Source: Actinomycetes bacterium
GTDB taxonomy: Bacteria; Actinomycetota; Acidimicrobiia; Acidimicrobiales; RAAP-2
Direction: 5' to 3'
Length of the DNA: 33,661 nt
NCBI GenBank assembly: GCA_021809995.1
Contig: JAJZJT010000004.1
Coordinates: forward strand, 1-33,661
Of the stretch, positions 7,004-23,573 are shown in pieces. The position numbers were made by a program, and so were the translations under genes. Below the pieces are notes generated by a model. That model saw only the letters and a program-made list of their open reading frames with translations, did no database searches and had not been told where the DNA came from. How positions within the stretch are numbered: the first letter of the stretch is position 1; the number at the start of each line of letters is the position of its first letter.

Positions 7004-7009
7004 TAAGGT
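7004..7009 (+). promoter_or_regulatory. Predicted -10 box (TAAGGT) for leaderless DUF4395 gene
   Basis: TAAGGT ends 6 nt before ATG 7016 in a locally AT-richer stretch of the intergenic region. No good -35 match is visible. Confidence 0.55.
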
Positions 7010-7015
7010 ATTGCC

Positions 7016-19472: not shown

Positions 19473-20873
19473 TCACGGGCGGCGCACTCGGGTCCCCTCG
19501 GGCCCGTCCTCGACCACCCAGCCGAGCCGGACGAGCTCGGTGCGCAGGGCGTCGGCGTCGGCGAAGCGGCGCTCCGCGCGTGCGGCGTCACGACGGGCCA
19601 CGAGGTCGAGCACCTCGGGGTCCTCCACGGCCGACCGGACGCCGCGCAGTGGCAGGCCCAGCACGGCGGCGAGGTGCGCGACGGTGCGCGCCGTGCGGGC
19701 AGCGTCCGTGGCGCGGCCGGCGTCGGCGGCGGCGTTCGCCTCCCGCACCAGCTCGAAGACCCCCGACAGGGCCCCAGGGGTGTCGAGGTCGTCGTCCATC
19801 CGCTCGACGAAGCGGGCCACGGCCTCCCGGTCGAGGTCCTCGTCATCCGCCTCGCCCACCACCGCCACCGGGTCCCCCACCGCCAGCGGGTCGGCGAGGT
19901 GGAAGCGCCGGGCGAGCTCGTCGAGCCGGGCGAGGCCGGCCTCGGCCTGGCCCACCGTCTCCGGCGTCACCTCGATCGGCGATCGGTAGTGGGCTCGGAG
20001 AACGAGCAGGCGGTAGGCACGCGGGTCGCCGCGAGCGAGCAGGTCGTCGAGGGACGTGAAGTTTCCGAGCGACTTCGACATCTTCTCGCCGGCGACGGTC
20101 ACCCAGCCGTTGTGCACCCAGTGGTGGGCGAAGTCGCGGCCGAGGGCGACGGCCTGGGCCCGCTCGTTCTCGTGGTGGGGAAAGATCAGGTCGATCGCCC
20201 CGCCGTGGAGGTCGAAGCCCTCCCCCAGCAGATCGAGGGACATCACCACGCACTCGGTGTGCCAGCCCGGCCGTCCCGGGCCCCACGGCGAGGGCCACGT
20301 CGGCTCGCCCGGCTTGGCCTTCTTCCACAGCACGAAGTCGAGGGGCGAGCGCTTGGCCTCGACCGCCTCGACCCTTGCTCCCGCCCGCAACGTGTCGAGC
20401 GGCTGGCGGGCGAGCAGTCCGTAGCCGGGGACCGCCTCGGTCGACAGGTAGACGCCGTCGGGGATCTCGTAGGCGACGCCCCGCTGGACCAGCTCCCCGA
20501 CGACCTCGACCATGCGGGCGACGTACGCGGTGGCGTGGGGGACGTGGTCGGGCCGGAGCACGCCGAGGGCGTCCATGGCAGCCCACCACGTCTCCTCGTA
20601 GCGGCGGGCCAGCTCCCCGGGCTCGACGCCCTCTTGGCGGGCGCGCTCGATCACCTTGTCGTCGACGTCGGTGATGTTCGAGACGTAGGTGACCTCGAGC
20701 CCCGAGGCGACGAGGTACCGACGGAGCACGTCGAAGACGAGGGCGAAGCGGCCGTGGCCGAGGTGGGGCGCGTCGTAGACGGTGGGGCCGCACACGTAGA
20801 GCGACGCCGCACCCGGCCTCCGCAGGGCGAGCGGGCGCACCTTGGCCGTCGCCGTGTCGTAGAGCCGCAGCAC
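19473..20873 (-). CDS. cysS: Cysteine--tRNA ligase
   Basis: A 466-residue class I aminoacyl-tRNA synthetase. The HIGH motif is HLGH (37-40) and the KMSKS motif is at 264-268. The zinc-site Cys is C28 in LYVCGPTVYD, with HTECVVMS and the FPHHENE segment completing the site. The C-terminal DALR/anticodon-binding part is present (EDRRFADADALRTELV region), so length and domains are complete. Start is GTG 20873, beginning the fold at LRLYDTATAK. A TACCGT box ends 7 nt before it, implying a leaderless mRNA. The gene is divergent from valS with 18 nt between start codons, and the two -10 boxes overlap. Confidence 0.97.
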   Translation of the reverse strand: MLRLYDTATAKVRPLALRRPGAASLYVCGPTVYDAPHLGHGRFALVFDVLRRYLVASGLEVTYVSNITDVDDKVIERARQEGVEPGELARRYEETWWAAMDALGVLRPDHVPHATAYVARMVEVVGELVQRGVAYEIPDGVYLSTEAVPGYGLLARQPLDTLRAGARVEAVEAKRSPLDFVLWKKAKPGEPTWPSPWGPGRPGWHTECVVMSLDLLGEGFDLHGGAIDLIFPHHENERAQAVALGRDFAHHWVHNGWVTVAGEKMSKSLGNFTSLDDLLARGDPRAYRLLVLRAHYRSPIEVTPETVGQAEAGLARLDELARRFHLADPLAVGDPVAVVGEADDEDLDREAVARFVERMDDDLDTPGALSGVFELVREANAAADAGRATDAARTARTVAHLAAVLGLPLRGVRSAVEDPEVLDLVARRDAARAERRFADADALRTELVRLGWVVEDGPEGTRVRRP

Positions 20874-20879
20874 GCAAGG

Positions 20880-20886
20880 TACGGTA
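20880..20886. promoter_or_regulatory. Superimposed opposed -10 boxes of valS (+) and cysS (-)
   Basis: Reading plus, TACGGT (20880-20885) ends 6 nt before valS ATG 20892. Reading minus, TACCGT (20886-20881) ends 7 nt before cysS GTG 20873. The boxes share five base pairs, so two polymerases could not open both promoters at once. Confidence 0.65.
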
Positions 20887-20891
20887 ACCCG

Positions 20892-23573
20892 ATGTTGCCT
20901 GCTGACGCGACCAGCCACTCCACGCCGCCGCCGGCACGCACGGGCCCCACCGGGGTCCCCGAGCGGCCCGGCCTGGAGGGGCTCGAGCCGCGCTGGGCAG
21001 CCGCGTGGGACGCCGAGGGCACCTACGCCTTCGACCGCACCGCGGAGCGGGCGGCCGTCTTCTCGATCGACACCCCGCCGCCGACCGTCTCGGGCTCGCT
21101 CCACGTGGGCCACGTGTTCTCCTACACGCACACCGACGCCGTGGCCCGCTACCAGCGGATGCGAGGCAAGGCGGTGTTCTACCCCATGGGCTGGGACGAC
21201 AACGGACTGCCCACCGAGCGCCGGGTGCAGAACCACTTCGGTGTCCGTTGCGACCCGACGCTCCCCTTCGACCCCTCGTTCTCGGCCCCGGAGGCGCCTG
21301 CCGATCCGCCGGTGGCCGTCTCGCGGCCGAACTTCGTGGAGCTGTGCCTCCGGCTGACCGAGGAGGACGAGCGCGCGTTCGAGCACCTGTGGCGGATGCT
21401 CGGGCTGTCGGTCGACTGGTCCCACACCTACGCCACCATCGGGGAGCGGGCCCGACGCGCCTCCCAACGGAGCTTCCTCAGGCTCCTCGCCGCCGGTCAC
21501 GTCGAGCAGCGGGTAGCCCCCACCCTGTGGGACGTCGACTTCCGTACCGCCGTGTCCCAGGCCGAGCTCGAGGACCGCGAGCGGCCCGGCGCCTACCACC
21601 GCGTCCGCTTCCCGCTGGCGGCCGTCCTCCCGGCGGGGGCGGTCGCCGAGGAAGACGGGGTCGACATCGAGACAACCCGGCCCGAGCTCCTGCCCGCCTG
21701 CGTCGCCCTCGTCGCCCACCCCGACGACGACCGCTACCGGCCGCTGTTCGGCACCGAGGTCACCACCCCGCTCTTCGGGGTGCGCGTCCCGGTCCTGGCC
21801 CATCCGCTCGCCGACCCCGAGAAGGGCTCGGGCATCGCCATGGTGTGCACGTTCGGCGACACGACCGACGTCCAGTGGTGGCGCGACCTCGACCTCGCCA
21901 CCCGGACGATCGTCGGGCGCGACGGGCGGCTCCAACCCGTCGCGTGGGGGGGACCCGGCTGGGAGTCCGTCGACGCCGCTGCCGCCCAGGCCACCTACGA
22001 CGAGCTGGCGGGACGGACCGTCTCCCAGGCCCGGACCCGGATCGTGGAGCAGCTGACCGCCTCCGGGGCGCTCGTCGCCGAGCCGTCCCCCATCACCCAC
22101 CCGGTGAAGTTCTACGAGCGCGGCGAACGCCCCCTCGAGATCGTGTCGTCGCGCCAGTGGTTCATCCGCACGCTCGCCCTCCGAGAACGCCTGCTCGAAC
22201 GGGGCGAGGAGCTCGTGTGGCACCCCGCCTACATGGCGCACCGCTACCGGGCCTGGGTCGAGGGCCTCTCGAGCGACTGGAACGTGAGCCGCCAGCGCTT
22301 CTTCGGCGTGCCCGTGCCCGTCTGGTACCCGGTCGACGCCGAGGGGACGGTCCGCTACGACCAGCCCATCGTGCCCGGCGAAGCGGCGCTGCCCGTCGAC
22401 CCCTCCACGGACGTCCCCGACGGCTACGCCGAGCACCAGCGCGGCGCCCCGGGCGGCTTCGTCGGGGACCCCGACGTCCTCGACACCTGGGCGACCTCCT
22501 CGCTCACGCCCCAGATCGCCGGCGGCTGGGAGGACGACCCCGACCTGTTCGGCCGGGTGTTCCCGATGGACCTGCGGCCCCAGGGGCACGACATCATCCG
22601 CACCTGGCTCTTCTCGACGGTCGCACGCGCCGAGCTCGAGCACGGCACCCTGCCGTGGCGCAACGCAGCCATCTCGGGGTGGGTGCTCGACCCCGACCGC
22701 AAGAAGATGTCCAAGTCGAAGGGCAACGTCGTCACGCCACTGCCGCTCATCGAGCGGCACGGTGCCGACGCGGTGCGCTACTGGGCGGCTTCCGGCCGAC
22801 CGGGAACCGACACGGCGGTCGACGAGGGCCAGATGAAGGTGGGCCGGCGCCTCGCCATCAAGGTGCTCAACGCCTCCCGGTTCGTCCTCGGGCGCCTGGA
22901 GGACACCGACAACGGCTCCGGGGCGGCCGGAGACGCGGACGACGTGACGGGGACGGCCCTCGCCGCCGTCACCGAGCCGCTCGACCTCGCCATGCTGGCC
23001 CGCCTGCGCCGCGTCGTCGAGGAGGCGACCGCCGCCTTCGACGCCTACGACTACGCGCGCGCCCTCGAGCGGACCGAGGAGTTCTTCTGGGCCTTCTGCG
23101 ACGACTACCTCGAGCTCGTCAAAGGGCGCGCCTACGACCGCGGCACGGGCTCGGGGCCCGCGTCCGCCCGCGCTGCTCTGACGGTGGCGCTGTCGGTGCA
23201 GCTCCGGCTGTTCGCCCCCTTCCTCCCCTTCGCCGCCGAGGAGGTGTGGTCGTGGTGGCGGACGGGATCGGTCCACCGGGCGCCCTGGCCCGAAGCCGGA
23301 GCCCTCCCCGACGCCGGCGACCCCGAGCTGCTCGCCGTCGCCGGCGAGGTCCTGGGCGCCGTTCGCCGCGCCAAGACCGCTGCCAAGCGGTCGATGCGCG
23401 CCGAGGTGGCGACCCTGACCGTCTCGGGAACGGCGGACCAGCTGGCACAGCTCGCGCTCGTCGCGTCCGACTTGTGCGAGGCGGGGCGGGTCGCGCACCT
23501 CGGTACCGTCGAGCAGCCCGGCCCCTCCGCGGACGGACTGGCCGTCGACGTCGAGCTCGCGCCCGAGACGTGA
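20892..23573 (+). CDS. valS: Valine--tRNA ligase
   Basis: An 893-residue class I synthetase charging tRNA-Val. HIGH is HVGH (71-74, in SGSLHVGHVF) and KMSKS is at 605-609; the connective editing domain lies between them. The segments GWDDNGLPTERRVQN and KFYERGERPLEIVSSRQWF are typical of ValRS. GWDDNGLPTE corresponds to the archaeal/Rickettsia-like ValRS type as I recall it, and the C-terminus ends soon after the anticodon domain without an obvious long coiled-coil arm seen in many bacterial ValRS. Start ATG 20892 follows a TACGGT box by 6 nt (leaderless). The in-frame extension upstream is antisense to cysS and not real. Confidence 0.96.
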   Translation: MLPADATSHSTPPPARTGPTGVPERPGLEGLEPRWAAAWDAEGTYAFDRTAERAAVFSIDTPPPTVSGSLHVGHVFSYTHTDAVARYQRMRGKAVFYPMGWDDNGLPTERRVQNHFGVRCDPTLPFDPSFSAPEAPADPPVAVSRPNFVELCLRLTEEDERAFEHLWRMLGLSVDWSHTYATIGERARRASQRSFLRLLAAGHVEQRVAPTLWDVDFRTAVSQAELEDRERPGAYHRVRFPLAAVLPAGAVAEEDGVDIETTRPELLPACVALVAHPDDDRYRPLFGTEVTTPLFGVRVPVLAHPLADPEKGSGIAMVCTFGDTTDVQWWRDLDLATRTIVGRDGRLQPVAWGGPGWESVDAAAAQATYDELAGRTVSQARTRIVEQLTASGALVAEPSPITHPVKFYERGERPLEIVSSRQWFIRTLALRERLLERGEELVWHPAYMAHRYRAWVEGLSSDWNVSRQRFFGVPVPVWYPVDAEGTVRYDQPIVPGEAALPVDPSTDVPDGYAEHQRGAPGGFVGDPDVLDTWATSSLTPQIAGGWEDDPDLFGRVFPMDLRPQGHDIIRTWLFSTVARAELEHGTLPWRNAAISGWVLDPDRKKMSKSKGNVVTPLPLIERHGADAVRYWAASGRPGTDTAVDEGQMKVGRRLAIKVLNASRFVLGRLEDTDNGSGAAGDADDVTGTALAAVTEPLDLAMLARLRRVVEEATAAFDAYDYARALERTEEFFWAFCDDYLELVKGRAYDRGTGSGPASARAALTVALSVQLRLFAPFLPFAAEEVWSWWRTGSVHRAPWPEAGALPDAGDPELLAVAGEVLGAVRRAKTAAKRSMRAEVATLTVSGTADQLAQLALVASDLCEAGRVAHLGTVEQPGPSADGLAVDVELAPET

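Follow-up and report, generated by a model that had tools for sequence, protein, structure and literature searches.

A symmetrical TANNNTA block as a likely shared promoter of the divergent cysS and valS genes in an actinobacterial genome

Divergent cysS and valS genes and the block between them

The window analyzed here, which is the whole DNA stretch of 33,661 nt, contains the divergent genes cysS and valS (Table 1). The product of cysS scored above the cut-off of the NCBIfam profile TIGR00435 and that of valS above the cut-offs of NF000540 and NF009687, and both were therefore regarded as real genes. For the valyl-tRNA synthetase, the match to NF000540 (alt_ValS, an NCBIfam exception model) was far above its cut-off, and the match to TIGR00422 was below it.

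Table 1. Positions of genes, intergenic region and –10 elements (in the window unless a contig is named)
Feature	Position	Strand	Remarks
cysS, cysteinyl-tRNA synthetase (CysRS)	19473..20873	–	466 aa; GTG start (20873–20871); predicted leaderless or nearly so
cysS–valS intergenic region	20874..20891	both	18 nt; modal length in relatives 20 nt
Shared –10 block TACGGTA (TANNNTA)	20880..20886	both	–7T of either reading pairs with –11A of the other
valS –10 box TACGGT	20880..20885	+	6 nt before ATG; T20880 (–12) needed by valS only
cysS –10 box TACCGT	20886..20881	–	7 nt before GTG; A20886 (T –12 on the – strand) needed by cysS only
valS, valyl-tRNA synthetase (alt_ValS / PRK13208 type)	20892..23573	+	893 aa; ATG start at 20892; predicted leaderless
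S9-like/ADH block	G000 contig C126, locus L338, around 1492–1513	both	boxes 9 and 6 nt from starts

An earlier note on this DNA had reported 18 nt between the two start codons and, within this gap, TACGGT and TACCGT boxes located 6 and 7 nt before valS and cysS, respectively, with five base pairs in common. Our reading of the sequence agreed with the gap, the boxes, their spacings and their coordinates, and the boxes overlap at 20881–20885. The resulting TACGGTA can be read as a –10 element on both strands, the –7T of each reading being paired with the –11A of the other. The start codons are 19 bp apart, and counting 7 nt from each –7T gives 18.

A TANNNT motif at approximately –12 is characteristic of actinobacterial leaderless genes (PMC3160421), and promoters of Mycobacterium tuberculosis have a –10 element and no conserved –35 element (PMC3898074). 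The cysS and valS boxes resemble these leaderless promoters, as the first T of TANNNT is located at –12 for valS and at –13 for cysS, no Shine-Dalgarno (SD)-like sequence was found in the 18-nt gap before either start, and no –35 element is needed. A sigma-70 scan that required a –35 element found no site from 20700 to 21100, as would be expected for TANNNT promoters without this element. However, described leaderless TANNNT promoters have one gene per box, whereas cysS and valS share one. Judging from the regions upstream of its predicted starts, the genome of the window uses leaderless promoters; TANNNT began 12–15 nt upstream in 34 of 325 predicted starts, against a background of approximately one or less per position.

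Conservation in relatives and chance expectation

We gathered divergent cysS–valS pairs from a scan of a genome collection, from 150 genomes belonging to the family of the window and from 198 belonging to its class; these pairs included 124 loci with short spacers of 17–23 nt, 57 of them unique. The outer bases of TANNNTA were retained in 55 of the 57 unique short spacers, a count for which the box helped to choose some of the valS starts, and the three inner bases varied among relatives (CGG, CCG, AAC, GGC, ACC, GGA and CGA on the + strand). When starts were chosen without the box, TANNNTA was present in 106 of 109 loci of the first genome set, and two of the three exceptions (L178 and L196) were wrongly picked upstream ATGs. 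The conservation that the earlier note had proposed to check in relatives with the cysS–valS pair was thus observed. In an alignment of 83 motif-carrying loci with pairwise identities below 85%, the outer TA...TA columns are invariant by selection for the motif, and the inner three columns contained <1 bit. The flanks of these 83 loci were also aligned in search of a –35 element; on the valS side none was found, and the conservation on the cysS side tracked an LxDT protein motif. SD-like 4-mers were found in one of 57 cysS leaders and one of 57 valS leaders in the coupled spacers.

In most relatives, the valS box is located 9 nt and the cysS box 6 nt from the start codon. Because of this 9-nt distance, valS may have a leader of 2–3 nt there, which we regard as just as likely as the absence of a leader. 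Both in the window (20892–20897) and in its same-genus relative, valS begins 3 nt further upstream than it does in most relatives (GATGTTGCC vs GATCATGCC), which reduces the distance between box and start codon from 9 nt to 6. Among the loci gathered, the spacer of L087 (JABBOA010000038.1, titled Acidobacteria bacterium isolate G2_27) was identical to that on contig C41 of genome G111, which belongs to the family of the window, and the phylum given in the title seems to be wrong.

We also estimated how frequently the block would be expected by chance. A sample of 433 kb from the same genome contained TANNNTA at 8 sites (0.018 per kb), of which only the site between cysS and valS had, on either side, a long open frame that begins at an appropriate distance. 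The long open frames of this GC-rich genome overlap, which led a simple gene caller to merge cysS and valS and to miss the pair; open frames were therefore checked at each TANNNTA site, and the genome was also searched for TANNNTA at 6, 7 or 8 nt from a start codon. An 18-nt gap offers 12 positions for the block, for which the chance expectation was approximately 2e-4 from the density in 433 kb and approximately 6e-4 from dinucleotide shuffles of the window. Because TANNNTA itself is not enriched in the 33.7-kb window (2 seen vs 1.7 expected from the shuffles), it is the position of the block that counts. For the sequences compared here, conservation in relatives is stronger evidence against chance than the rarity of the motif.

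Boxes of separated cysS and valS genes

We compared the boxes of coupled genes with those of relatives in which cysS and valS are separated. The base needed by valS only was present beside the cysS box in 55 of 57 cases with a gap of ≤24 nt, in 2 of 31 divergent cases with a longer gap and in 3 of 51 cases in which the genes are not neighbors. In the 31 unique longer spacers the cysS box stays, with the valS-only base missing in 29, and cysS genes without a valS neighbor had a TANNNT box 6–10 nt before the start in 51 of 58 unique cases, 48 of these 51 without the valS-only base. The reciprocal comparison gave the same picture, with the cysS-only base present beside the valS box in 55/55 coupled and 1/28 separated cases (missing in 27/28). 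Fisher tests of coupled against uncoupled cases, which ignore relatedness, gave P values of approximately 1e-18 (longer gap), approximately 1e-24 (non-neighbors) and 5e-21 (valS box). Three of the five cysS exceptions (L193 with a longer gap; L173 and L181 as non-neighbors) are apparently coupled copies interrupted by a frameshift or a contig end. As a separate observation, no valS was found beside cysS at L139/L140 and L198/L199 (genus g14 of the same family), where a TAGCCT box is located 9 nt from the cysS start.

On the valS tree, the coupled or uncoupled label required nine changes on the best tree and at least five on well-supported branches. Among five well-supported independent pairs, three to four were informative, and the base change was always in the expected direction; because so few pairs are insufficient for a sign test, this support is consistent and not formally independent of ancestry. 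In addition, since an unrooted tree such as this does not tell a gain of the coupled state from its loss, a missing base denotes a comparison between groups and not a proven direction of change. Some lineages do have the longer gap and the separate boxes that the earlier note had named as evidence against sharing; however, the changes in their boxes support sharing in the others. The block, its spacing, its conservation and the absence of the reciprocal base on uncoupling can all be read in the sequences. The absence of the reciprocal base in separated genes makes it very probable that both directions use the TACGGTA block, and the opposed and superposed leaderless promoters that had been proposed here are supported both by this difference and by the conservation in relatives.

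These comparisons bear on several other explanations of the block. One gene alone might use it, with the other transcribed from a promoter upstream, inside the coding sequence of its neighbor. We consider this very unlikely, as on both sides each box is without exactly the base of the other gene once the genes separate, and the SD-like signals normally used by leadered transcripts are found at neither gene. The block might instead be an operator for a DNA-binding regulator, and the sequence GGTACGGTAACC is indeed nearly palindromic in appearance and, at its full length, unique in the genome. However, only the outer TA...TA and its 3-nt spacing are conserved, and the bases inside and around it vary; half of the block persists at cysS without valS; and its position is locked to the start codons in the manner of leaderless –10 boxes, so that an operator is extremely improbable. 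We assign an equally small probability to a chance overlap with no promoter role in an AT-poor genome. The lack of over-representation of TANNNTA in the window would agree with it, but particular positions of the block are conserved across several families although the inner bases change.

A candidate bidirectional promoter and its precedents

We consider it highly likely that the 18-nt gap is one bidirectional promoter for the housekeeping sigma factor, with TANNNTA as its sole core element and with both mRNAs leaderless or nearly so. RNA polymerase with the main sigma factor would bind the pseudo-symmetrical TANNNTA in either orientation, and transcription would begin approximately 7 bp past the –7T on each strand, giving two starts approximately 18–19 bp apart. 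Both starts would fall at the start codons or no more than approximately 3 nt from them, and both mRNAs would then be leaderless or nearly leaderless. If both genes are leaderless, the promoter constitutes the entire intergenic region, and if each gene needs TANNNT 6–9 nt before its start in a gap of approximately 20 nt, the boxes are forced to superpose. This requirement for a box at a set distance from each start is the probable reason why the superposition persists; selection for two working promoters in a short gap suffices, and selection for coupling therefore need not be invoked. One polymerase at a time would occupy the site, which at ordinary promoter strength should hardly alter how much the other gene is transcribed. 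We thus infer the positions of the start sites, the use of the main sigma factor, the expression of both strands and the lack of marked competition.

The divergent start sites of bidirectional promoters as a class are separated by 7–25 bp, with 18 bp as the most frequent distance (Warman et al. 2021, cited in PMC10268837 and PMC12825309). The start sites of the commonest group are 18 bp apart because the –7T and –11A of both readings pair (PMC10268837). The cysS–valS block resembles this group in having a single –10 sequence for both strands, with reciprocal pairing of –7T and –11A, in its location between divergent protein-coding genes, and in predicted start sites approximately 18–19 bp apart. 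It differs in that both transcripts are predicted to be leaderless, the promoter coinciding with the 18-nt intergenic region, and in having a high-GC actinobacterial TANNNT instead of a TATAAT-like element and no known activator site. The prpD and Rv1129c genes of M. tuberculosis (PMC3898074) are likewise adjacent and divergent, and are leaderless by mapped starts, whereas cysS and valS are so by prediction; the pair differs in that one of its genes encodes a regulator and both are starvation-induced. The cysS–valS block would represent a known type of bidirectional promoter in its commonest form, with both genes predicted to be leaderless and with unusually good conservation.

To our knowledge, the sharing of a –10 element by two essential genes that are both leaderless, conserved over several families, is uncommon, and in this respect the arrangement can still be called unusual, as the earlier note had done. 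However, superposition as such cannot, since overlapping –10 elements are the published norm among bidirectional promoters (PMC10268837). Bidirectional promoters and leaderless TANNNT promoters are already known; as far as we found, the gene pair, the compactness of the doubly leaderless arrangement, how widely it is conserved and the reciprocal difference in bases between coupled and uncoupled genes are new. Our literature search found no paper on promoter sharing between cysS and valS. A Salmonella EF-Tu study was judged by its title and abstract to be unrelated to such sharing.

Bidirectional promoters were recognized mainly by means of start-site maps, in which much antisense initiation may be noise. 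The comparative evidence presented here suggests selection on both readings of a symmetrical –10 element at once; across several families, a single 7-bp block seems to be what two essential protein genes rely on. With pairs of coupled and uncoupled relatives, it could be tested directly whether sharing has a regulatory cost or benefit.

It had also been proposed that cysS and valS compete for RNA polymerase at the shared block, and that the charging capacities for Cys and Val are thereby coupled without a regulator. We know of no reason that links Cys and Val. That opposed polymerases exclude each other at the block is a physical property expected from its geometry, and in bidirectional promoters in general steric constraints exclude simultaneous binding of opposed polymerases (PMC12825309). 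This built-in exclusion, the competition that arises in E. coli only under strong activation of one direction (PMC12825309) and the persistence of the coupled state across several families would be in keeping with a physiologically meaningful competition that couples CysRS and ValRS levels. However, in all five of the E. coli bidirectional promoters tested, basal activity was too low for appreciable competition, and mutations of one direction hardly altered the other (Warman et al. 2026; PMC12825309). Moreover, the same architecture recurs in this genome between genes for an S9-like peptidase and an ADH-family protein and is therefore not tied to tRNA charging, and cysS and valS are uncoupled in lineages inside the family, so that sharing is dispensable. 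These three lines of evidence speak against both the competition and the coupling; we regard the latter as improbable, and a regulatory role of mutual exclusion as unlikely. Slightly less probable still is that the ratio of both essential synthetases is set, or their noise reduced, by polymerase exclusion, such that selection holds the 20-nt coupled state as a regulator-free balance in which the strength of one direction shifts the other.

The S9-like/ADH pair has the second shared block that is predicted to be doubly leaderless, with TACGGTA in a gap of 20 nt (Table 1). It has the same TACGGTA between divergent starts as the cysS–valS pair, with unrelated functions; the S9-like assignment is our own reading of the peptidase sequence, which had no Pfam match. 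TACGGTA or TACCGTA occurred at the same position of this pair in six other genomes of the family (L366–L371). In a same-genus genome (L365), the promoter unit was present in two tandem copies (GTCGGTACGGTACCC twice), with one TACGGTA per gene, which possibly represents a recent uncoupling by duplication. The symmetrical form was also observed in the window at 7004–7010, where TAAGGTA precedes by 6 nt the ATG of a gene for a DUF4395 protein of 164 aa, as a one-sided promoter of the leaderless type.
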